From a virus: a stretch of 40,523 nucleotides of DNA. The stretch lies in the IMG/VR virus record IMGVR_UViG_3300017725_000018, positions 1-40,523 of that record, one strand, 5' to 3'. The translations under genes and the position numbers were made by a program. The notes under the pieces are model-generated. The model did no database searches, was not told the origin of the DNA, and worked only from the letters and a program-made list of their open reading frames with translations. Below are positions 31,839 through 40,523 of the stretch, one piece after another (within the stretch, counting starts at the first letter, position 1; every line of letters starts with the position of its first letter).

Positions 31839-32102
31839 TTAGACACCGAAGTAGCAATCAGAATTAATCTCGACGATGTTTACTTTAGGGTCTCTGTAGT
31901 TAACACCATCGGGCGTCGATACGTCATTGAAGGAACAACCCTCGAGAGCATCTACGAAATTCTCATAACTACCTGCCGAACGTGCCAGGTCATAAAGACC
32001 CTCATCGTTCCCGATCCAGAGGGCAACGTTCCAGGTCTCATAGTTCGTCCAACCGTTGTAGGTGGTATCGGTGAGGTCTGTCTGAAAAGCGGAGACTGTC
32101 AT
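31839..32102 (-). CDS. YNGWTNYETW-type small protein, 87 aa
   Basis: The signature YNGWTNYETWNVALWIGNDE at residues 15-34 is typical of a family of small phage proteins of unknown function (I recall DUF7249; not verified). The rest is acidic with a YENFVDALEGC helix. It has its own copy of the nine-member intergenic element immediately upstream, with a leader of about 20 nt. A terminator-like hairpin follows. Small proteins of this kind are usually made early and may act on the host; that is an inference. Confidence 0.8.
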   Translation of the reverse strand: MTVSAFQTDLTDTTYNGWTNYETWNVALWIGNDEGLYDLARSAGSYENFVDALEGCSFNDVSTPDGVNYRDPKVNIVEINSDCYFGV

Positions 32103-32118
32103 GAGTGAATTGAGTGAT

Positions 32119-32155
32119 TACGCTATTAGGACACTTTAAAGGTGAGTAACTTAAA
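32119..32155 (-). promoter_or_regulatory. intergenic promoter-like element, copy A
   Basis: The minus strand has GTTACTCACCTTTAAAG, TGTCC, then TAATAGCGTAATC before the 87-aa gene. It is one of nine copies (A-I) with the consensus GTTACTCACCTYTAAA, STGT, about 4 nt, then TATAGTGTAAG. GTTACT and TATAGT are 17 nt apart, as in a sigma70-type promoter. Confidence 0.65.
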
Positions 32156-32181
32156 AGGAGAATAAGTACCCCCCTTAAGTA

Positions 32182-32514
32182 TCAACGACGATCTAATGCA
32201 GCTGCCTTACGGTCTGCTTTAATCTGTGCAGCGTAACGACGCTTAACCTTTGAAAGATTTGATACCATCTCTTTACCAATACCGCAGACTGGGGTCATTG
32301 TTTGTTCACGTCCCCCGCCTGTTGTTGTTGCTTTGGTGGTAGAATCTCCCGTCTTAACTGTACCCAATGCGCGACCTGAAACCATCCCCATCGGCAACTT
32401 AGACCAGGTTTCTCCCTTACGGGGTCCACGAGTCTTAAGTTTCTTGATAGTAACTGTTTTGCCACTATCTTGCAGACTGTCAATGATGTGAGTCAATTGA
32501 GTGACTGAATTCAT
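32182..32514 (-). CDS. basic protein of unknown function, 110 aa
   Basis: The N-terminal helix MNSVTQLTHIIDSLQDSGKT is followed by a Gly/Thr/Lys-rich middle (TIKKLKTRGPRKGETWSKLP, TTKATTTGGGREQTMTPVCG) and a very basic C-terminal helix (NLSKVKRRYAAQIKADRKAAALDRR, quoted to show its charge in two parts: NLSKVKRRYAAQ and IKADRKAAALDRR). The composition suggests nucleic-acid binding, but no motif proves it. It has element copy B upstream and copy A downstream, so it probably forms its own transcription unit. Confidence 0.75.
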   Translation of the reverse strand: MNSVTQLTHIIDSLQDSGKTVTIKKLKTRGPRKGETWSKLPMGMVSGRALGTVKTGDSTTKATTTGGGREQTMTPVCGIGKEMVSNLSKVKRRYAAQIKADRKAAALDRR

Positions 32515-32530
32515 TGGGGCGGTTTGCTGC

Positions 32531-32568
32531 TTACACTATAAGGACACTTTAAAGGTGAGTAACTTTAA
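32531..32568 (-). promoter_or_regulatory. intergenic promoter-like element, copy B
   Basis: A near-consensus copy: TTAAAGTTACTCACCTTTAA, AGTGTCC, TTATAGTGTAAGC. It lies between the 57-aa and 110-aa genes and leaves a leader of about 20 nt. Confidence 0.7.
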
Positions 32569-32579
32569 TTCCTATACAA

Positions 32580-32753
32580 TCACCATTTGTCTGGAGTACT
32601 TAAACTTTCCACATAAGCATCACACCTCTCAGAACCTTCAAGTTCGAACAACCTTTCCCAGTTGATATTGTTGGGATCAAAATCTCCCAGTGCCTCAATA
32701 TTCAAGGTGATTCGATAACGTTGCTTCTGTGCTTGTTGATAGATAGCAGGCAT
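32580..32753 (-). CDS. small conserved protein, 57 aa
   Basis: It begins MPAIYQQAQKQRYRITLNIE, continues with DFDPNNINWERLFELEGSE and ends VESLSTPDKW. CGGAGA lies about 4 nt before the ATG, a good ribosome site. The promoter at 32783-32811 gives a leader of about 25 nt. The strand-rich start (RYRITLNIE) and short helix suggest a small alpha/beta fold. I recognise it as a cyanophage-type small protein with no known function. Confidence 0.75.
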   Translation of the reverse strand: MPAIYQQAQKQRYRITLNIEALGDFDPNNINWERLFELEGSERCDAYVESLSTPDKW

Positions 32754-32782
32754 GTTTCTCCGAGTGGTGTGAAGACTTAATC

Positions 32783-32811
32783 AGTGTAGAATGAGCGTGG
32801 CTATATGTCAA
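32783..32811 (-). promoter_or_regulatory. sigma70-type promoter for the 57-aa gene
   Basis: TTGACA (exact), a 17-nt spacer and TACACT lie on the minus strand, with the -10 about 30 nt before the ATG at 32753. No copy of the nine-member element is present at this gene; this promoter takes its place. Confidence 0.6.
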
Positions 32812-32834
32812 CCTCATAACCGTTATTTATGAGG
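32812..32834. other. 8-bp stem inverted repeat containing ATAAATAA
   Basis: CCTCATAA and TTATGAGG form an 8-bp perfect inverted repeat with a 7-nt loop, directly upstream of the promoter at 32783-32811. The minus strand also reads CATAAATAA, a late-promoter-like sequence. It could be an operator or a late start; there is no T tract, so it is not a classical terminator. Confidence 0.4.
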
Positions 32835-32991
32835 GATGCTTATGTTTTTTGAGTGTCAAGTCCCCAAAAAACTTATGTGCGGGTGCTTGACATTTCTGCG
32901 CGGTTGTGATAGAGTGCTTGCTTAGATCACAAGGACTGGGGACATTTAATTAATCATAAGTACAAGGACTATGAGACATTAAAACACACAC

Positions 32992-33125
32992 TTTTCCACA
33001 GAAATACACCTTAATACACACATTATATAATACTTTTCCACAAGGGTGTGGAGAACTCATATACATTTAAAATAACATTTAATTATATAAAAAAGACTAA
33101 TCTTTATGTATAATAGCATAAAAGG
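32992..33125. other. candidate origin: DnaA-box cluster next to AT-rich tract
   Basis: Exact TTTTCCACA, the cyanobacterial DnaA-box form, occurs at 32992-33000 and 33034-33042 in the same orientation, 42 bp apart (about four helical turns). An inverted TGTGGAGAA at 33047-33055 (complement TTCTCCACA, one mismatch) forms an inverted repeat with the second box. The following 60 nt are almost pure A/T (ATTTAAAATAACATTTAATT, then TATATAAAAAAG). Boxes beside an unwinding-type tract in the longest gene-free stretch suggest a replication origin or a DnaA-titrating site. This is inference; T4-type phages are not known to need DnaA. Confidence 0.45.
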
Positions 33126-33143
33126 GGTGATTTTACCCCCTTT
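33117..33143 (-). terminator. rho-independent terminator after the 30-aa gene
   Basis: On the minus strand AAAGGGG and CCCCTTT form a 7-bp stem around a loop of about 9 nt, followed by TTTTATG. It is about 30 nt after the stop of the 30-aa gene. The plus strand also has a short T run, so it may work both ways. It separates this unit from the origin-like region. Confidence 0.6.
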
Positions 33144-33173
33144 ATGTGTTATTCAGTTATATGAACTAAGTGA

Positions 33174-33266
33174 TCAATAGAGTGATTCAATTGCCTCCAG
33201 AATGAGAAGAATATCATTACCATTCTCAGCAGATTCAAGAGCAAGGAAGAGATCAGACTTAGACAT
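33174..33266 (-). CDS. tiny protein, 30 aa
   Basis: The frame reads MSKSDLFLALESAENGND then ILLILEAIESLY and stop. It is a single amphipathic helix-rich peptide. Support comes from its position between the 113-aa gene and a terminator, and from resemblance to short S(E/D)LFxAL...GxDIL peptides I recognise from cyanophages. No strong ribosome site is seen. Function unknown. Confidence 0.6.
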   Translation of the reverse strand: MSKSDLFLALESAENGNDILLILEAIESLY

Positions 33267-33376
33267 GAAAAAGTGTTAGTTAGAGTTTGTAATTAGTGAG
33301 TTTTAAGTCATCACCAGGACTCGGTTAATACTAGGTCTTACGCTGAATACTGTGCTGCCTAGTTGTTAGTTAATGA

Positions 33377-33718
33377 TCATGCAAAGATGAAACCATTTGT
33401 GAAATCATATGTATTGAAGACTTTACTTTGTCCTGCCATTCCTACAAACTTATCAACATACCACTGAAAGTTCTTTTGATAAACACACTCTCCATCAACA
33501 CAGAAGTAGTTACATAGTGCATTCAATCTAGACTTAGTTGTAGTTGATTGATAACCTCCATCAAAGATAGTCATCGAATCATCATCAATAGTTGCAATTT
33601 GATTGCCATGAAGATAAACGAAACTTACACCCTCAATTGTAATGACTTGAGTGTTACCAGATTTCCAATCAAGATTAGACTGGATTGCTTGGCACATTTC
33701 GGTTTCAATTTTACGCAT
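33377..33718 (-). CDS. conserved cyanophage-type protein, 113 aa
   Basis: It starts MRKIETEMCQAIQSNLDWKS and continues with GNTQV, VSFVYLHGNQIATIDDDSMT, FDGGYQSTTTKSRLNALCNY and KNFQWYVDK. The YLHGNxIA...FDGGxxSxTTKSRLNAL pattern is one I recognise as a recurring small protein of T4-type cyanophages, function unknown. Copy C of the repeated element lies upstream, but with an unusually long leader of about 95 nt that contains no obvious reading frame. It is probably cotranscribed with the 30-aa gene. Confidence 0.8.
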   Translation of the reverse strand: MRKIETEMCQAIQSNLDWKSGNTQVITIEGVSFVYLHGNQIATIDDDSMTIFDGGYQSTTTKSRLNALCNYFCVDGECVYQKNFQWYVDKFVGMAGQSKVFNTYDFTNGFIFA

Positions 33719-33818
33719 GATTTGAGAGTTTTAGAAGAAGATTGGTGTGAGTTTATCACCAGCAGTAGAGTTGCCAACTGACTCACTTAGGAGTGGTGAT
33801 TGGGTGTCCTGTGCCCCT

Positions 33819-33857
33819 CACACTATTGAAACACTTTAAAGGTGAGTAACTTTTAAT
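33819..33857 (-). promoter_or_regulatory. intergenic promoter-like element, copy C
   Basis: TTAAAAGTTACTCACCTTTA, AAGTGTTT, CAATAGTGTGAGG on the minus strand, upstream of the 113-aa gene and directly after the 79-aa gene. Confidence 0.65.
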
Positions 33858-33867
33858 CTAACCTAAA

Positions 33868-34107
33868 TCACATGCCATTCATGAACTCGTGTAACTCTTC
33901 TAAGTATTGCTCTTCAGTCTCAAATGAACGTCCATAAATCACACACGGAAATGTATGCTTTTGAAACATAGTTGAAGTAACTTCACAGTCTTGTTTGTCA
34001 TAACCCATTTCAATAAGAGTGTTTACATAAGGATTGGAAGTAGTCATAGGTTTGTAGATAGAAAGATTAGAAAGTTGTGTGAGAGAGTCGTTAAACAGAT
34101 CAAGCAT
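33868..34107 (-). CDS. hypothetical protein, 79 aa
   Basis: The start was taken at the ATG that overlaps the previous stop by 8 nt (ATGCTTGA), with GAAG about 7 nt upstream. The longer frame would need a TTG, and two other ATGs lie 21 and 24 nt upstream. The product (MLDLFNDSLTQLSNLSIYKP, then NTLIEMGYDKQDCEVTSTMF, ending EEQYLEELHEFMNGM) is mixed alpha/beta with an acidic C-terminal helix. Function unknown; coupled to the 75-aa gene. Confidence 0.65.
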   Translation of the reverse strand: MLDLFNDSLTQLSNLSIYKPMTTSNPYVNTLIEMGYDKQDCEVTSTMFQKHTFPCVIYGRSFETEEQYLEELHEFMNGM

Positions 34108-34327
34108 TTGTTGCTTCAGAATATACATCATAAAACATATCAAATGCCATCAAATCATGCACAAATGAATTCATGTTTGATTGATCAGCAACCCAATCAT
34201 ATGCCATATCTAAATCAGCACCGGTTTCTAATACAAACGATTGTAAACCTTCGAGTGCAGATAGAAACGCAGGATCATAGGCGATCTGTCCGCTGATTGG
34301 TTTGGTCTGTTGATTAGTGTTCTTCAT
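34100..34327 (-). CDS. acidic hypothetical protein, 75 aa
   Basis: It starts MKNTNQQTKPISGQIAYDPA and is helical and acidic (FLSALEGLQSFVLETGADLD, MAYDWVADQSNMNSFVHDLM). The ATG lies inside the 3' end of element copy D, so a transcript starting 6-9 nt after the TAGTAG -10 would begin within the gene. Function unknown. Confidence 0.7.
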   Translation of the reverse strand: MKNTNQQTKPISGQIAYDPAFLSALEGLQSFVLETGADLDMAYDWVADQSNMNSFVHDLMAFDMFYDVYSEATNA

Positions 34328-34362
34328 ACTACTAAGACACTTTCGAGGTGAGTAACTTTTAA
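34327..34362 (-). promoter_or_regulatory. intergenic promoter-like element, copy D
   Basis: TTAAAAGTTACTCACCTCGA, AAGTGTCT, TAGTAGTATGAAG; the last ATG is the start codon of the 75-aa gene. The upstream edge abuts the stop of the 93-aa gene. Confidence 0.6.
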
Positions 34363-34364
34363 TC

Positions 34365-34646
34365 CTATACTAATTCTTGCTGATACGACATTAGATTCTC
34401 TTCTGTAATCTCATCCACACTCTCTTGAATCACCTGATAGATGTAATCATTGTTTCCTACATCATCAAAGATACGTGCAACAAGTGCAGGATCATTTACC
34501 TCACTATCATAATCAATCTCACCATTTTTATCCTTCAAATGACAATCATTCTTGGTATAGATCCATGCGGCACATTCTGCATCCTCTCCCTGTTCTTTGA
34601 TCATAGATGATACTCTGTCTTGAAGTTGCTTGAGAGTGTAGTTCAT
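34365..34646 (-). CDS. hypothetical protein, 93 aa
   Basis: It starts MNYTLKQLQDRVSSMIKEQG and is acidic, with an ECAAWIYTKNDCHL strand, a DPALVARIFDDVG helix and a long acidic C-terminal helix (VIQESVDEITEENLMSYQQE). No catalytic or membrane feature. It lies 48 nt downstream of the 90-aa gene with no element in the gap, so the two probably share the message that starts at copy E. Confidence 0.75.
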   Translation of the reverse strand: MNYTLKQLQDRVSSMIKEQGEDAECAAWIYTKNDCHLKDKNGEIDYDSEVNDPALVARIFDDVGNNDYIYQVIQESVDEITEENLMSYQQELV

Positions 34647-34694
34647 GATTTGAGTGAGTGAGTGTTAGTTAGTCTCTTCAGTAAATGAAACTAA

Positions 34695-34967
34695 TCAACC
34701 ACAACATGCCATCGGAGAATATTCTTCGCGAGGCATCTTATCAGTATTGTAACCAGTCACCTCAGAACCATTAGCAATACGAGAATGCCAATCATACTTT
34801 GCTTCGATAGCAAGAATTGTGCTGTATGATTTCATACCATTAACACGGAAAGTAACGCGACGAATGAAACGACGAACAGTGACTTTCATGCCTTTCTTTT
34901 CACAAGACTCAGCAATGAATGCCTCAGGGAAGTAATCAACGATCGTGGTGCTGTTGGTGACTTGCAT
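34695..34967 (-). CDS. hypothetical protein, 90 aa
   Basis: It starts MQVTNSTTIVDYFPEAFIAE and has a basic central strand region (VTVRRFIRRVTFRVNGMKSY) and a C-terminus MACCG with adjacent cysteines. It is mostly beta with a positive patch. No family recognised with confidence. Copy E of the repeated element lies upstream, leaving a leader of about 20 nt. Confidence 0.75.
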   Translation of the reverse strand: MQVTNSTTIVDYFPEAFIAESCEKKGMKVTVRRFIRRVTFRVNGMKSYSTILAIEAKYDWHSRIANGSEVTGYNTDKMPREEYSPMACCG

Positions 34968-34983
34968 AACGTTGAACGGACGA

Positions 34984-35021
34984 CTACACTATAAGAACAG
35001 TTTAGAGGTGAGTAACTTTTA
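34984..35021 (-). promoter_or_regulatory. intergenic promoter-like element, copy E
   Basis: TTAAAAGTTACTCACCTCTA, AACTGTTC, TTATAGTGTAGTC. The first bases are the stop codon of the upstream gene (TTTTAAAAG), so the element begins without any spacer. Confidence 0.7.
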
Positions 35022-35300
35022 AAATGCCAAACATGCCCAACGATCTAATTTTGTGCCATAATACTTGTTGATAGTTTGAGTTACAACTTCATTGCACTCA
35101 CTATCACAAAAACCCCATTCTTGATGTGCTTGTAGATAACGATACATTACACTTTGAGCATTGATTGCATCATCATTATCAGCAAGAAGTAAAGTGAAAA
35201 AACTATTCACCTTATCAATTACATCATCAGGAGTATCAATGTAACATTCCCATTCGCTACGCTTCAGTGTGATTGTTTTCATTGAATTAGAAATAGTCAT
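35019..35300 (-). CDS. hypothetical protein, 93 aa
   Basis: The body reads MKTITLKRSEWECYIDTPDD, then VNSFFTLLLADNDDAINAQS, YLQAHQEWGFCDSECNEVV and a C-terminal CLAF. The listed start is the first ATG (MTISNSMKT); an ATG six codons later gives MKTITLKRSEW and may be the real start. Neither has a good ribosome site. It has a mainly helical composition with clustered Cys (CDSEC). It follows the 60-aa gene by 30 nt, so the two are likely cotranscribed from copy F. Confidence 0.75.
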   Translation of the reverse strand: MTISNSMKTITLKRSEWECYIDTPDDVIDKVNSFFTLLLADNDDAINAQSVMYRYLQAHQEWGFCDSECNEVVTQTINKYYGTKLDRWACLAF

Positions 35301-35330
35301 GAAGAATAAACTTAGAATCTTATATGTTAA

Positions 35331-35513
35331 TCAACCTCCAAACATTTCATCAAACAATGGTGTCTCACGATTCTCACGATCATACATTTCATTAACCAAC
35401 CAAATGTTTTGTTTGATCCATGCAATTTCGTTTTCTTTCTTGGTAAGCATCTCACGAAGATCGTAGAGTTGCTTATTACGTTCGGTGATTGTCATTGCTT
35501 TAGTTGTGCTCAT
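35331..35513 (-). CDS. small coiled-coil protein, 60 aa
   Basis: Residues about 8-47 form a continuous amphipathic helix (ERNKQLYDLREMLTKKENEI, AWIKQNIWLVNEMYDREN). The C-terminus is LFDEMFGG. The ATG at 35513 lies within the 3' end of element copy F; a second ATG (MTITERNK) six codons later would fit a transcript starting just after the element. Likely oligomeric; function unknown. Confidence 0.7.
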   Translation of the reverse strand: MSTTKAMTITERNKQLYDLREMLTKKENEIAWIKQNIWLVNEMYDRENRETPLFDEMFGG

Positions 35514-35548
35514 ACAACTATGACAGTTTAGAGGTGAGTAACTTTTAA
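35511..35548 (-). promoter_or_regulatory. intergenic promoter-like element, copy F
   Basis: TTAAAAGTTACTCACCTCTA, AACTGTCA, TAGTTGTATGAGC. It overlaps the start codon of the 60-aa gene on one side and the stop of the membrane-protein gene on the other. Confidence 0.6.
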
Positions 35549-35868
35549 TCCTTAAACTTTTCCATTATCATAGCAATAACTACGAAAACAGAGATAGGTA
35601 TAGCAACATACCAATACTCAATAAGTAACCAAAGCATGAAAATAAACCCTATCACTATAATCAAACCTATGGCATTTCCTGCATCACTAATAGCAGAACT
35701 TCCACGCGGTTCATTATAAGATCTTTCGCATTGTACTATACAACCAGGGTTTCTACGTTGCACCATACAAATTGCATCATGTGCCGTCAATGCTTCTACT
35801 GTTTCAACATATTGCTGAAACATATCAGTTTGACCAACTTTAGGATATACTCTAATGTCGTAAATCAT
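35545..35868 (-). CDS. small membrane protein with two C-terminal helices, 107 aa
   Basis: Residues 1-60 form a soluble domain (MIYDIRVYPKVGQTDMFQQY, then ALTAHDAICMVQRRNPGCI). Two hydrophobic segments follow, about residues 66-83 (AIGLIIVIGFIFMLWLL) and 86-101 (WYVAIPISVFVVIAMI), with a short turn and a basic tail, so both ends would lie on the same side of the membrane. GAGGA before the ATG is a good ribosome site. It could alter the host envelope, but no holin or superinfection-exclusion family is recognised. Confidence 0.75.
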   Translation of the reverse strand: MIYDIRVYPKVGQTDMFQQYVETVEALTAHDAICMVQRRNPGCIVQCERSYNEPRGSSAISDAGNAIGLIIVIGFIFMLWLLIEYWYVAIPISVFVVIAMIMEKFKD

Positions 35869-35889
35869 AACTAATCCTCATAGTGTTTT

Positions 35890-36048
35890 TCATGCTGGTG
35901 TTACACTCCATTCATCTGTAGGAACCATCGTTTTGATGACATGTTCAACATTTTCGATTCCATAAACTACAACTTTCTGAGTTGAAATGTAACCACTTTT
36001 CTTCTCACGTTTCCATGAAACAACCCATCGATCACAAGATACTTTCAT
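35890..36048 (-). CDS. small hypothetical protein, 52 aa
   Basis: The frame reads MKVSCDRWVVSWKREKKSGY, then ISTQKVVVYGIENVEHVIKT and MVPTDEWSVTPA. Its ATG overlaps the stop of the preceding gene (ATGA), which supports coupled translation. Two strands and a helix suggest a compact domain. Function unknown. Confidence 0.65.
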   Translation of the reverse strand: MKVSCDRWVVSWKREKKSGYISTQKVVVYGIENVEHVIKTMVPTDEWSVTPA

Positions 36049-36245
36049 ACCCAATTCTCCATAAATTCGTCAAGTGTGTAACCTTCGCCAGTTGATGTTT
36101 CTTCAATCAATTGTTCGATTGTAAGTTCTTCCATCTTCAAACGATACTCCTCTGGTGTGTCATCATTAGGATCATAATCATCATGACAAAGATACTCCCA
36201 TTCACGAACAAGTGCATCAATTAGTTGCTCTTTAGTATAATCCAT
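36045..36245 (-). CDS. acidic conserved protein, 66 aa
   Basis: The ATG is 2 nt after the previous stop; the longer frame extends into that gene and is rejected. The product is MDYTKEQLIDALVREWEYLC, then HDDYDPNDDTPEEYR and TGEGYTLDEFMENWV, strongly acidic and helical. I recognise MDYTKEQLIDAL...YLCHDD as a recurring cyanophage-type small protein with no known role. Confidence 0.75.
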   Translation of the reverse strand: MDYTKEQLIDALVREWEYLCHDDYDPNDDTPEEYRLKMEELTIEQLIEETSTGEGYTLDEFMENWV

Positions 36246-36247
36246 AA

Positions 36248-36634
36248 TCAGGCACCCTGATAGTATGAATTGCGATAAAGATAACCACCCGCCCAATCAC
36301 AATTCTCCAACATAAACTCACGTTCTTGAATGATTAGCAGATTGAAGCGTACTCCTTTAGCAGGTGCTTTGTATGATGCTGCTTTGTAAACTTCACCAGT
36401 CTTCTTATCAATGAAGGCATGAACTGATTCAGTCTCACCATTGACACATTGCATCACTTTGTGATACTTACGACCAGAGATGAGTACATAAGAATAGTTC
36501 TTACCATTAGGATGTGAACGCTGATGACTTTGCTGAAGAGCATCACACAGCATCAGAGCATACTTAGTGACATTCAATTGAATGGTGTTCTGAGCATCTT
36601 TTTGGGCAACGTAGTCTGTGAATGTGGTGGTCAT
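36248..36634 (-). CDS. conserved cyanophage-type protein, 128 aa
   Basis: The core SGRKYHKVMQCVNGETESVH, FIDKKTGEVYKAASYKAPAK and GVRFNLL is a pattern I recognise in many T4-type cyanophages; the function is unknown. The N-terminus is helical (QLNVTKYALMLCDALQQSH) and the C-terminus aromatic (CDWAGGYLYRNSYYQ). The DKKTGEVYK turn resembles a small nucleic-acid-binding beta domain, but that is a guess. It heads an operon of at least three coupled genes under element copy G. Confidence 0.8.
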   Translation of the reverse strand: MTTTFTDYVAQKDAQNTIQLNVTKYALMLCDALQQSHQRSHPNGKNYSYVLISGRKYHKVMQCVNGETESVHAFIDKKTGEVYKAASYKAPAKGVRFNLLIIQEREFMLENCDWAGGYLYRNSYYQGA

Positions 36635-36648
36635 AATGTTTGGATGCT

Positions 36649-36686
36649 TATACTATAAGGACAGTTTAAAGGTGAGTAACTTTAAT
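36649..36686 (-). promoter_or_regulatory. intergenic promoter-like element, copy G
   Basis: TTAAAGTTACTCACCTTTAA, ACTGTCC, TTATAGTATAAGC. It begins directly at the stop of the nucleotidyltransferase-like gene and leaves a leader of about 15-20 nt with no ribosome-site-like sequence. Confidence 0.7.
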
Positions 36687-37589
36687 TTACCACGTTTTTG
36701 CCATCAAAAAATTCGCACGACTGAACTCTTTACGGTCAACAACCTTGAAGATGCCATATTGATTGCTGATAACATAACCTTCATGCAGACTATAAGTATC
36801 ACCAATCATACAGGTAATGTCATCGGTTTCATTGGTGAACCAGAACAAATCGTCCTTGATAGTTGCAACCAACTTCCACAATCGCATCACATTGATATCA
36901 ATATCAAATTTTTCTGCAATTTCATTTTCGTCAATATCATTCTCAGCACGGATACAATCATTGATATGTTTTTTGACCTTTGCAGCAGTTTTATCATTCA
37001 AAAAAGAACCATGACACAAAGTTGCCATTTGTTTGGCAAAATTGCAAACGTCCTTCAAATCTTCACGATAAGGGTTCAATGAAACTTCTGGTTTTACAAA
37101 GAAACATTTATAGGTACTTTTGGGACAAAGTATCATAGGTGATGAAACTGCATTACGAAGGTCATCATCTGCCACATAGATTGTATGAGGTGCAATGATA
37201 ATATCTTCTGCAATTATTTCAGGAAAGATGTAAGTGATCGTGTTGGGACGATAAGTAAGGCTACCACCATAACCAATGAAATCACCTTGAAAGATAGAAT
37301 CTGTGCGAGGCAAACAATCAAAGCAAGCATGAAGAATACGCGCAACTTTACCCTGATGGTTTTTGTCAATTTCTTCATGAGAATGATTGATTTTGATTTT
37401 TACTTTGTTGAAAACAGATTTAGTGCCAACAAAAAATGTATTGGTTGCAGGATCTGTACCCCAAACAATAGCAGGAGCACCATCCATTTTAGTGCTGATG
37501 AAACTATCAGGTTCAGAAAACCAATCAAGAACCGAAAGATCTCCAGTCAGGATAGAATCTTCAGGATGTTGTAGGTGGGTGTTCTTCAT
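36687..37589 (-). CDS. probable covalent nucleotidyltransferase (ligase-like), 300 aa
   Basis: Residues 33-39 read TKMDGAP, the KxDG motif I of DNA/RNA ligases and capping enzymes (candidate nucleophile Lys34). Further family-like motifs follow in order: a motif III-like IFQGDFIGYG at 99-108, motif IV HEGYVIS at 269-275 and motif V FKVVDR at 281-286 (Lys282). It would bind ATP, form a Lys-AMP and act on an unknown nucleic acid or nucleotide end. The strongly conserved-looking N-terminus MKNTHLQHPEDSILTGDL supports the first ATG, which overlaps element copy H. I recognise similar proteins in T4-type phages but no proven activity. The length fits an RNA ligase catalytic domain with a helical insert. 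Confidence 0.6.
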   Translation of the reverse strand: MKNTHLQHPEDSILTGDLSVLDWFSEPDSFISTKMDGAPAIVWGTDPATNTFFVGTKSVFNKVKIKINHSHEEIDKNHQGKVARILHACFDCLPRTDSIFQGDFIGYGGSLTYRPNTITYIFPEIIAEDIIIAPHTIYVADDDLRNAVSSPMILCPKSTYKCFFVKPEVSLNPYREDLKDVCNFAKQMATLCHGSFLNDKTAAKVKKHINDCIRAENDIDENEIAEKFDIDINVMRLWKLVATIKDDLFWFTNETDDITCMIGDTYSLHEGYVISNQYGIFKVVDRKEFSRANFLMAKTW

Positions 37590-37622
37590 ACTACTGAAAC
37601 AGTTTAGAGGTGAGTAATTTTT
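37587..37622 (-). promoter_or_regulatory. intergenic promoter-like element, copy H
   Basis: AAATTACTCACCTCTAAAC, TGTTT, CAGTAGTATGAAG; the first core base deviates (ATTACT for GTTACT). It sits 10 nt behind a rho-independent terminator, which is strong support for promoter function. The start codon of the nucleotidyltransferase-like gene is within its 3' edge. Confidence 0.7.
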
Positions 37623-37631
37623 ACATGAGCA

Positions 37632-37659
37632 TAAAAAAGGAGGGTGATAATACCCTCCT
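37632..37659 (-). terminator. rho-independent terminator
   Basis: On the minus strand AGGAGGGT and ACCCTCCT form a perfect 8-bp stem around ATTATC, followed by TTTTTT. It starts a few nt after the stop of the 60-aa gene and ends just before element copy H. Confidence 0.9.
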
Positions 37660-37666
37660 CATAATA

Positions 37667-37849
37667 TCACCGATCAATAGCAGAATAATATGCTTTGTCG
37701 GTGATAACATTAAACAGAAAAGAAAGATCCTCTCCTAGTTTTTTAATTTCGTAATTATGAATACGGAGACGTGCTTTTAAATCTAAGAACAAAAGATCAA
37801 AGGTAGCATCATAGTCCTCACGTTCCATAATTACGGTGGGACGAGTCAT
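37667..37849 (-). CDS. small hypothetical protein, 60 aa
   Basis: It reads MTRPTVIMEREDYDATFDLL, then FLDLKARLRIHNYEIKKLGE and DLSFLFNVITDKAYYSAIDR. It is helix-rich and amphipathic, with alternating acidic and basic faces. It forms a single-gene unit between element copy I and a strong terminator. Function unknown. Confidence 0.75.
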   Translation of the reverse strand: MTRPTVIMEREDYDATFDLLFLDLKARLRIHNYEIKKLGEDLSFLFNVITDKAYYSAIDR

Positions 37850-37863
37850 AAAAGAATCGTGTG

Positions 37864-37902
37864 TTTACACTACAGATACACTTTGATGGTGAGTAACTTT
37901 AA
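37864..37902 (-). promoter_or_regulatory. intergenic promoter-like element, copy I
   Basis: TTAAAGTTACTCACC, ATCAAAGTGTATC, TGTAGTGTAAAC. It is the most divergent in the middle. It overlaps the stop of the motif-I methyltransferase gene and leaves a leader of about 20 nt to the 60-aa gene. Confidence 0.6.
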
Positions 37903-38324
37903 CTGAAGAAAGATTCCACTCCTACAGGTTCACCAAATCCATAATCATATTCTAGTGCATTAGTACAAACGTAGTGAGGGTGATCAACTGGAACACCAAT
38001 TCTTTTACACAACTCAGCGTGATTATCTTCCATAAGTTCTACTGCAAACAGCATATTATCATTGATATGTGTTAAGTCATGATACTTCAATAATTCTGTT
38101 TGCAGTGCCAATAGGAAGTTCCCTGACCCCGCAGAATTATCAAGAAAAGTAGACTTAGGATCTTTTAGCGTAGATTTAGAGATCTCTGATACCATTTCAA
38201 CACAAAGTTCAGCAGGAGTGAATACTTCACCTGTCTCATCAATTCTATCATCGGTCCTTTCAATGTCCGACCCTGTAGTAGAGTTGTGCTGATTCTTTTT
38301 AGAAGTATCGTCTTTTCTAAACAT
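37899..38324 (-). CDS. methyltransferase motif X-I-II-III fragment or subunit, 141 aa
   Basis: The start is the ATG that overlaps the previous stop by 8 nt. Motif X (TGEVFTPAELCVEMV, 31-45), SAM-binding motif I (FLDNSAGSGNFLL, 60-72; usual form DPAAGSGNFL), motif II acidic residue (LFAVELMEDN, Glu96) and motif III (NALEYDY, 122-128) are all present in normal order. The protein stops just where catalytic motif IV (NPPY) should follow. Motif IV is found instead in the gene just upstream. It may be a SAM-binding subunit of a split N6-adenine methyltransferase, or a truncated enzyme. There is no stop or frameshift within the visible domain. Confidence 0.8.
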   Translation of the reverse strand: MFRKDDTSKKNQHNSTTGSDIERTDDRIDETGEVFTPAELCVEMVSEISKSTLKDPKSTFLDNSAGSGNFLLALQTELLKYHDLTHINDNMLFAVELMEDNHAELCKRIGVPVDHPHYVCTNALEYDYGFGEPVGVESFFS

Positions 38325-39324
38325 AAAAATTTGGAATAAAGTTGTTGATATATTCTCTGTCTTCTTGTGAAATGTTGTAATAGTCAAATACAGAATCGTC
38401 GTCCCATTGTTGATTCAATGGCGGCATAGGTACACAGTCAAGGTATCTTTTAATATACAAATGTTGGGAAACTTTGTTGATAGACAAAGCAAACCTTGCA
38501 AACTTAGTCTTTAGATAAGAGACCATATTTGCTCTCTCTTCAGAACTATTCAGAAGAAAACAACGTGCTCCTTTCTTGTAACCATAAAGATCACTTCTCT
38601 CATAAAAGAATGTCCAGAAGTCATCTTTACAAGTCTTAGTCTTATCTTTTGCTCTACCATCTCCACAAATTTCAGGTGCCTTCAGTGTGCAATCTGTTGC
38701 ACGATCTTCCAACTTAGCAACATGCTGATAAACATTACTAGAAACAGCAAGTTCTTTGATATTGTTGACAATATCCCAATGCTTTTCTGTTGGTTCCCAA
38801 TATCCAGTGGGAAGGTCATCTAGACTATCAATATAATACTTATTGCCAGTGAAATCATACTCAACTTCAATAGGCCCAACGTGGTTTTTTGCAGCATAAG
38901 TGATAACCAACGGTGCTGCAAATTGTGCAGGAGCAAAGACATGATTGCCATTGAAGAACTTCAACTTCTTGACCCTACCTTTTAGAGCATTCTTTACCTG
39001 TTTCTCAATATCTTTTGTGGTACGATACAACCAACCAGCAGGATGAATTAAACTCACATTGTCCGAATTATTAAGTGCCATGAGTAAGAACTCAAGGTGG
39101 ATGTTTTTTAGATAAGGTGGATTACCAATGGTATGAGTAAAGTGCATATTGGTAAGAGATTCGCGGTCAGTAGTTACATTTATTCTATCATCAATCTGAT
39201 TAATTGCATAGATGTGTCTGGAATCATTCTCCCAGATGGTAATATCTTCAGGAGCATATCCTTGGCGCTTGATTGCACACAAAGAGTGCAAACCTGAAGG
39301 GTCTCCAATGATAGAAAGTTTCAT
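38317..39324 (-). CDS. N6-adenine methyltransferase-like protein with NPPY motif, 335 aa
   Basis: Catalytic motif IV NPPY is at residues 68-71 (THTIGNPPYLKN). A VSLIHPAGWLY segment (90-100) and FNGNHVFAPAQFAAPLVITY (124-143) follow, as in Eco57I-like and type I/IIG adenine methyltransferases. Upstream there is a Rossmann-like half (ITIWENDSRHIYAINQI) but no clear glycine-rich motif I; MKLSIIGDPSGLHSL is the only candidate. Residues about 160-300 could be a target-recognition region, with a basic, Cys-containing stretch. The ATG overlaps the helicase stop (TGATG), so translation is coupled. It probably needs the 141-aa protein for SAM binding; that is an inference. Confidence 0.8.
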   Translation of the reverse strand: MKLSIIGDPSGLHSLCAIKRQGYAPEDITIWENDSRHIYAINQIDDRINVTTDRESLTNMHFTHTIGNPPYLKNIHLEFLLMALNNSDNVSLIHPAGWLYRTTKDIEKQVKNALKGRVKKLKFFNGNHVFAPAQFAAPLVITYAAKNHVGPIEVEYDFTGNKYYIDSLDDLPTGYWEPTEKHWDIVNNIKELAVSSNVYQHVAKLEDRATDCTLKAPEICGDGRAKDKTKTCKDDFWTFFYERSDLYGYKKGARCFLLNSSEERANMVSYLKTKFARFALSINKVSQHLYIKRYLDCVPMPPLNQQWDDDSVFDYYNISQEDREYINNFIPNFYV

Positions 39325-40523
39325 CAGATGAATAGTTCGTCAAACAATTCTACACTAAGTTGCTGCTGAGTCTTACCTGAGCATGACAGTTTATGAAGTG
39401 TCTTACACTCATCTTCGCTCATAGAGTGTCGAATATCGTCCGCTGCTTGAGTAATAGTGTGACTCAATGTTTTTGGATTGATAACATCCTCGTTGATTAA
39501 TTGACGAAGAATCTCCTCACAATCCATAGTATCATGAATGTAATTCTCAGACTCAATTACGGTATAGATTGAGTTGACTTGCTCTCCACACTTAAGACAG
39601 TGGTAGATAACCAAGGGCACACGTTCTAGGATTGCCTTGATAGTCTCTTGCTTGGAATAAAGCATAGACTTCTCAGACTTCTCCGATTGATTCTCCTTCT
39701 TCTTGTTAGTTTTGCCATTAGCGTTGTTATCATTCAGAAGGACGGACTTAGCAACATTGCCATAACTTGCTTCAAGATTTACATCAAACTCAATGTTCTC
39801 CAAGTTCTTGAAATTCAGGCGATCTGCAATACCAGAGACCAAATTGATTGTGTTACCTACATCAGCAGCGAGAACTGCAACAACCTGATCCTGATTAAGA
39901 GTGGCAAACTCTTCATTCCACTCAAAAATAGCAGCGAAGTCAGTGTAAGTGTACTGAGTAAGTTCTGGATTAGATTCACATGCAGCAGCATAAGTTTGCC
40001 GAAGAGATTCAAGACAACGTTGCGGGCAAAAATCAATCACCTGCCAATCATGTGTGCCAGATCCTCCCCTGAACGCAAATTGTGTCCAGAATTCAATACT
40101 CTTACCCTCTTTACAATTGATAATGGTATCAATCTTCTTCGCAGTTACTCCGCGAACGTTAGCACTTTGAGTAATAATGCAGGAAGCAACATTCTCATTG
40201 ATATGCTTGTTGATCATATCGGAATCAACTTTAGCACTGCCATGTGCAACTAGAGGAGCAAATCGTGTGCCCTTCATATACTCTGCAAATGCATCACATG
40301 CTTTTACAGATGACAGAGTAATATAAAGATGGGTTGCATCTTTTAGAAGACGATTGTTGCGATGAACATGGCGTTCCCCAACAAACATTCTACTTACAAA
40401 CTCCTGGACAAGTGCAGGTTCCATGAAGTTACCTTCCTCATCAACATTGAAGAGATTCTTCATAGCATCGGGGTCATCTCCATAGACTGCCTGATACTGA
40501 GCAGATTCATACTTGGCAAGGAT
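39324..40523 (-). CDS. SF2-type helicase, C-terminal part, 5' end outside window
   Basis: The frame is open to the last base of the window (400 visible residues), so the ATG at 40463 is not the real start. The visible part resembles the second RecA-like domain of SF2 helicases: THLYITLSSVKACDAFAEYM (motif IV-like), SCIITQSANVRGVTAKKID (motif V-like) and FWTQFAFRGGSGTHDWQVID (motif VI-like, but with one Arg where QxxGRxxR is usual). A helical region follows, then a Lys/Asn-rich linker (NGKTNKKKENQSEKSEKS) and a possible zinc knuckle (CLKC, then IHDTMDC). Helicase motifs I-III must lie outside. It is joined to two methyltransferase-type genes, which suggests a DNA-modifying or restriction-like complex. 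Confidence 0.65.
   Translation of the reverse strand: MLAKYESAQYQAVYGDDPDAMKNLFNVDEEGNFMEPALVQEFVSRMFVGERHVHRNNRLLKDATHLYITLSSVKACDAFAEYMKGTRFAPLVAHGSAKVDSDMINKHINENVASCIITQSANVRGVTAKKIDTIINCKEGKSIEFWTQFAFRGGSGTHDWQVIDFCPQRCLESLRQTYAAACESNPELTQYTYTDFAAIFEWNEEFATLNQDQVVAVLAADVGNTINLVSGIADRLNFKNLENIEFDVNLEASYGNVAKSVLLNDNNANGKTNKKKENQSEKSEKSMLYSKQETIKAILERVPLVIYHCLKCGEQVNSIYTVIESENYIHDTMDCEEILRQLINEDVINPKTLSHTITQAADDIRHSMSEDECKTLHKLSCSGKTQQQLSVELFDELFI

Follow-up and report, generated by a model that had tools for sequence, protein, structure and literature searches.

Three overlapping genes at the end of the virus record IMGVR_UViG_3300017725_000018 probably form a phage-borne, ATP-dependent (helicase-dependent) restriction-modification cassette with a two-subunit adenine methyltransferase, as judged from sequence comparison and structure modeling. 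The window, by which we mean the whole 40,523-bp stretch of that record analyzed here, carries the trio on its minus strand at positions 37899-40523. In order of transcription, the genes encode the C-terminal part of HelA, a putative superfamily 2 (SF2) helicase-nuclease subunit (39324..40523, 399 residues, open at the window edge); P0002, an NPPY protein that we assign as the catalytic and target-recognition subunit (38317..39324, 335 residues); and P0001, the S-adenosylmethionine (SAM)-binding subunit (37899..38324, 141 residues from the ATG in ATGTTTAG). The helicase stop and the NPPY start meet in the junction TGATG, and the SAM start and the NPPY stop meet in ATGTTTAG. A preliminary description, made from the sequence alone, had reported these three open reading frames and both junctions; that observation is confirmed, while the interpretation it attached to them is partly supported. 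Searched against Pfam as single sequences, the proteins gave sub-threshold matches throughout (N6_Mtase at 5e-4, Eco57I at 1e-4 for P0002, and Helicase_C at 0.11). PHROG matches were strong, with P0001 assigned to phrog_4376 (4.8e-72) and the helicase part to phrog_22930 (1.9e-128), the latter over profile positions 295-689 of 691.

The genes are conserved as one unit, in keeping with the earlier suggestion that a helicase and adenine methyltransferase parts are coupled here as they are in type I, type III, and type ISP systems. In 79/80 viral loci, the SAM gene has an NPPY gene immediately upstream, a count that includes loci in which a small nuclease gene stands between the two (type B, described below), and the one remaining locus is at the edge of a contig. 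Overlap of the SAM gene with the preceding gene was seen in 132/138 cases. The helicase family likewise retains linked methyltransferase genes among relatives, which is not the pattern of a stand-alone replication helicase. Overlapping small genes are frequent in phages, and three unrelated genes might have come to lie together by chance, but we consider this extremely improbable in view of the 79/80 linkage, the natural fusions of both pairs (helicase with NPPY in more than 10 loci, and NPPY with SAM in Aeromonas phages), and the same trio on actinobacterial chromosomes.

The motifs of the methyltransferase are divided between two proteins. P0001 contains motif X (FTP, 38214-38222), motif I (DNSAGSGNF, 38115-38141), and motif II (ELMEDN), and its chain stops short of the position expected for motif IV; the P0001 profile matches CamA along motifs X-I. 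Motifs X and I are present in 106/106 distinct homologues of this subunit, and NPP[YFW] is present in 0/106. Motif IV is found on P0002 as NPPY at residues 68-71 (nucleotides 39112-39123), where beta4 and NPPY are followed by a C-terminal recognition region and preceded, in residues 1-59, by an atypical Rossmann half (GDPSGLH, WENDSRH) in which motif X is absent and motif I is altered. Approximately 103 NPPY partners carry NPPY or NPPF with rare exceptions (NPPY, n = 85; NPPF, n = 15), and four of them fit a loose SAM-loop pattern. P0002 thus has motif IV within a methyltransferase fold, and motifs X and I, which would be expected ahead of it in one chain, are both on P0001. Because the motifs lie on two proteins, membership among the N6-adenine DNA methyltransferases (gamma-type, Eco57I/N6_Mtase clan) belongs to the pair and to neither chain.

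The methyltransferase had been described as split, and in the distribution of its motifs it is. It is not the product of a simple cut, because AlphaFold2 predicts for P0002 by itself a whole methyltransferase fold, its SAM half being atypical; a Foldseek search with this model returned CamA (E = 2e-8) and M.TaqI (E = 4e-7). The view of P0002 as the mere missing half of P0001 was dropped once the model showed a complete fold. As modeled, the two window proteins complement each other without being the halves of a clean cut, with P0001 predicted to duplicate, not fill, a structural half, and we infer from other family members that P0001 is the SAM supplier in the window genotype. Across the family, the N-terminal half of the partner is graded, from GDPxGxH (type A, including the window) through loop-less forms (type B, in which the SAM loop is lost, e.g., FDTFLTLTL) to absence (P-SSM2 036 and S-CAM7 q1). 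When P0002 of the window is compared with the type B partner in S-CAM7 SB42, similarity sets in at residue 59, where beta4 starts, with 51% identity beyond it. Since short and fused forms begin at this same point, residue 59/beta4 is a modular joint.

The two halves also occur as a single protein in Aeromonas phages, in which the NPPY half precedes the SAM half. A fused version (L154) and a split paralogue (L157) are found together in one Aeromonas phage, both on the same IMG/VR record. AlphaFold2 modeled the Aeromonas fusion with a predicted template modeling score of 0.73 and a predicted local distance difference test score above 90 in both cores, packed as one adenine-methyltransferase domain. 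Foldseek matched this model to CamA and M.TaqI over part of their length (probability up to 1.00, E only 2e-3), and a partial-length match is what the permuted order leads one to expect. In five loci (L027, L028, L031, L037, and L081), the N-terminal half of the NPPY subunit (MKTLYLAKEPG...) is unlike a methyltransferase half; sequence comparison suggests that this half is replaceable. The NPPY subunit of S-SKS1 (L010:4677-6056) has NYPY in place of NPPY and, by eye, a GIY-YIG-like N-terminal stretch to which Pfam gave no match; this subunit is possibly inactive or altered in specificity.

The preliminary description saw no nuclease motif, because the window edge had cut off the N-terminal domain. 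Contig L017 matches the window at 99.94% identity along 5150 bp, extends beyond the edge, and supplies the full helicase; the N-terminal ~300 residues of HelA, with helicase motifs I-III and a GIY-YIG-like domain, are outside the window. The L017 helicase (~700 residues) has an N-terminal domain of ~100 residues and the SF2 motifs AKCRAGKS, DEAD, TGTAY, and QFAFRGG, and the motif VI region, EFWTQFAFRGGS, is at about 40060-40094 in the window. R134/G136/K137, D228 E229 A230, T256, and Q441/R445 are invariant in the helicase alignment (A1) and cover Walker A, DEAD/H, motif III, and motif VI, as for an SF2 ATPase of the ResIII type, and ResIII matches were obtained in full helicases, several of them under the curated cutoff. 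A scan of genome contigs with the helicase alignment, whose patterns reach close relatives only, returned no relative. In L121, L123, L124, and L125, a helicase of ~590 residues is followed by a protein in which the helicase C-terminal part is fused to NPPY, so that the break point differs.

Among relatives, the N-terminal domain occurs as several variants. T5orf172 (GIY-YIG family) matched it above the curated cutoff in L053, L055, and L107 (8e-7 to 8e-5), and GIY-YIG matched it weakly in L019 (0.035). An alignment of 28 such domains (A6) has G17, T19, D31, D59, and E77 invariant and Y4 in all but one, with residue 61 varying among E, D, Q, K, M, I, V, and W. L017 is 90-97% identical to L018 and L019 on both sides of the domain, and the domain alone is swapped; the nuclease-like domain is therefore exchangeable.

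Several findings weigh against a cassette that both cuts and modifies. The N-terminal domain of L017, which is of the window type, gave no match in a Pfam search, and a profile-profile comparison of the divergent domains with those matching T5orf172 gave low probability; assignment to GIY-YIG is therefore based on homologues and on the invariant residues in common. Positions 61 and 63, which are E and H in L019, are M61 and K63 in the window genotype; since E61 and H63 are absent and Pfam gave no match, the nuclease-like domain of the window genotype, whose activity is uncertain, could be inactive. A two-subunit methyltransferase might then only shield phage DNA from host restriction, with the helicase and its inactive GIY-YIG-like domain loading or moving the enzyme and no cutting taking place, and helicase-free NPPY+SAM pairs such as P-SSM2 036/037 would fit such a role. 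However, the methyltransferase pair is repeatedly accompanied by nuclease domains, which belong to two unrelated folds, and near-identical relatives have another N-terminal domain in which E61 and H63 are kept. The preliminary description had raised a modification or anti-restriction machine; the recurrence of the two nuclease folds makes either role alone less likely than restriction plus modification, and we regard modification alone as unlikely.

The methyltransferase pair meets a second objection. Given its complete-looking modeled fold, conserved GDPxGxH, and acidic motif II, P0002 might itself bind SAM; the loop and the acidic motif are kept in most type A partners, and P0001 would in that case be a truncated duplicate that only regulates or stabilizes a self-sufficient enzyme. 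This is improbable, as the NPPY chain of P-SSM2, S-CAM7 q1, and the Aeromonas fusions begins at or near beta4 and would be unable to bind SAM alone, the loop is lost in type B, and P0001 is the most conserved subunit (54-82% identity to relatives). In some ACG-2014f genomes, moreover, no NPPY gene accompanies the SAM gene locally, and a search for the partner of this orphan SAM gene elsewhere in the ACG-2014f genomes gave short weak matches only, near 137 kb.

The restriction-modification reading draws further support from how the parts are combined in other genomes. Type A, that of the window, consists of a GIY-YIG-like helicase, NPPY, and SAM, with some helicase-NPPY fusions, and type A+C (L080, L083, and L100) has a helicase, two NPPY genes, and one SAM gene. 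Type B has another helicase (helicase B), NPPY, an E...D...QxK protein of the PD-(D/E)XK type, and SAM, whereas type C is NPPY and SAM alone. In type D, a single chain of ~1100 residues stands beside a separate SAM gene, as in L087, where a T5orf172 match, again above the cutoff, falls in one polypeptide with ResIII and Eco57I matches. It has been proposed that T5orf172-family endonucleases have a recombination role in jumbo phages (PMC7824862), and HelA might by the same token be a DNA-repair or recombination helicase-nuclease of the Holliday-junction type, functionally separate from the adjoining methyltransferase pair. The helicase-NPPY fusions, the single-chain GIY-YIG-helicase-methyltransferase proteins, and the swapping of the entire cassette as a block make this very unlikely.

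Such swaps can be seen between sister phages. The Synechococcus phages S-CAM7 CC49 (type A) and S-CAM7 SB42 (type B) share 99.5% identity in each flank, and the exchange stops at the SAM start codon. In ACG-2014f, C24 (type A) and C80 (type B) have flanks that are 95-97% identical and the SAM gene in common, and in both pairs the cassette is the sole difference at the locus. Within ACG-2014f, the B block is present at at least 99% in fourteen records and the A block in two; KJ019152 retains SAM without a block, KJ019103 has SAM with an unrelated nuclease-like gene, and KJ019148 has neither SAM nor block. Cassettes are thus exchanged next to a constant SAM gene. It is possible, and we put it forward tentatively, that the locus serves as a modular weapon platform of phages. 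Many interchangeable methyltransferase specificities would have one conserved SAM subunit as their common half, whole nuclease-motor cassettes (GIY-YIG, PD-(D/E)XK, or none) would be swapped between sister lytic phages, and the cassette carried by each co-infecting phage would determine its restriction of the other phages and of the host chromosome. The gene beside the orphan SAM gene in KJ019103 (L159:1419-1955) encodes a 178-residue protein with a PD-(D/E)XK-like pattern (GERFVSKF...GHDRLIDG...TEIKFG) and no Pfam match.

Homologous parts also occur outside the cyanophages. In Klebsiella phage KpV477, NPPY is fused to a LEM-3 GIY-YIG domain (2e-15) and a SAM half accompanies the fusion; Lak megaphage B2 (L162; MK250021, ~42.9-47.6 kb) has a type B-like set of a ResIII helicase, E...D...QxK (a QVK-type nuclease), and an NPPY protein, with a SAM half just downstream. 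A Curtobacterium chromosome carries an NPPF and SAM pair. Bacterial counterparts were retrieved with the SAM alignment, which matched in 6/297 sampled genomes of Curtobacterium's class; 2 of those 6 actinobacterial loci (L179 and L180) hold an operon of SAM, a T5orf172-like-ResIII helicase, and an NPPY half. The actinobacterial helicase aligns to the window helicase family over the N-terminal domain and the motor (E = 5e-8), and the PADLOC model PDLC03626 matches the actinobacterial helicase and NPPY proteins at 2e-21 and 2e-20. This operon is the strongest argument for a phage trio that functions as a restriction-modification system. In L179 and L180 the NPPY half begins at beta4, and the helicase C-terminus has, by eye in alignments, an FTP-like degenerate methyltransferase N-half.

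Among known systems, type ISP enzymes such as LlaGI and LlaBIII, which appear in the fold and profile matches, likewise unite a nuclease, an SF2 helicase, a gamma-type adenine methyltransferase, and a recognition region, and in type D relatives (L087) a single chain similarly holds the NPPY, helicase, and nuclease-like parts. The window differs in having a separate SAM-half gene and three chains and in being phage-borne, and the nuclease of ISP enzymes differs from the GIY-YIG-like domain of this family. ISP systems are single polypeptides, whereas the window trio is three genes, and type D relatives approach the one-chain form with SAM still separate. PDLC03626 (REase_MTase_IIG, a type IIG model of 1359 positions) matches, in addition to the actinobacterial proteins, a helicase-NPPY protein of phage MA01 (3e-6) and gave no match to the window proteins; the model describes a single chain, while in the cassette the parts are on separate chains and the SAM half is a subunit of its own. 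The cassette would work like a type ISP or IIG system yet lacks their one-chain form.

Type I and type III systems also combine an ATP-dependent SF2 (ResIII-type) motor with an adenine methyltransferase and exchangeable specificity parts. The trio differs from them in its split methyltransferase, in the otherwise arranged GIY-YIG or PD-(D/E)XK parts, and in having no separate HsdS neighbor, the recognition region being within P0002. It also has no counterpart of the type III Mod subunit with SAM-binding and catalytic motifs together, as these lie on two proteins. BREX- or DISARM-like defense, which the preliminary description had raised, was rejected as unsupported by PADLOC scans, which gave no helicase match and only generic type I/II methyltransferase matches. 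M.TaqI and CamA, gamma-class N6-adenine methyltransferases, share NPPY and are matched by the models of both P0002 and the natural fusion; they differ in that motifs X-I-III and motif IV are here on two proteins and that fused relatives are permuted, with the NPPY half leading. Adenine methylases of an EcoKI-like, circularly permuted kind have been reported in jumbo phages (e.g., APU01582.1), and the Aeromonas fusion resembles them in having the NPPY half followed by the SAM half; the available part of the report on them (PMC7824862) does not describe the split pair with a helicase cassette. Identity of APU01582.1 with the Aeromonas fusion gene was not confirmed, the Aeromonas 65.2 homologue being APU01675.1. 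Open-access literature, to which our search was confined with subscription papers outside it, yielded no description of the split cassette.

We infer the following scheme, from the physical complex and the methylated base to ATP-driven motion, cleavage, and the target DNA. P0002 and P0001 would act jointly as one adenine-N6 methyltransferase, in which P0002 would recognize the DNA site and hold the catalytic NPPY and P0001, with motifs X and I-III, would provide the SAM-binding half. HelA, with its GIY-YIG-like domain and SF2 helicase, would move on DNA powered by ATP and would cut DNA with unmethylated sites, that is, host or rival-phage DNA, and new phage DNA would be marked by methylation. 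Lytic T4-type phages are usually thought to have solitary methylases, not helicase-dependent restriction systems. In cyanophages, and by homologous parts also in Aeromonas, Klebsiella, and Lak phages, a conserved SAM subunit is combined with interchangeable recognition and cutting modules. If the scheme is correct, it would offer a concrete, testable mechanism for phage-phage competition and host DNA degradation in the ocean, as well as a naturally occurring example of an enzyme whose active site is divided between two genes, and S-CAM7 CC49/SB42 and ACG-2014f C24/C80 are ready-made pairs for comparing cassettes.

The remaining genes of the window resemble those of T4-type cyanophages and include terminase small subunit, neck, and baseplate wedge genes. 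A DUF6267 gene (8e-82; 36687-37589) adjoins the trio, and many relatives also have it close to SAM. Between minus-strand genes at 32098-37907, an element of 53-58 bp with the conserved core GGTGAGTAA is present in 8-9 intergenic copies and is possibly a shared promoter or recombination element; one copy of this repeated element (families D1 and D2; 37845..37907, minus strand) lies at the 3' border of the SAM gene. Repeated intergenic pieces, of ~85-90 bp, are present in the ACG-2014f cassettes as well.

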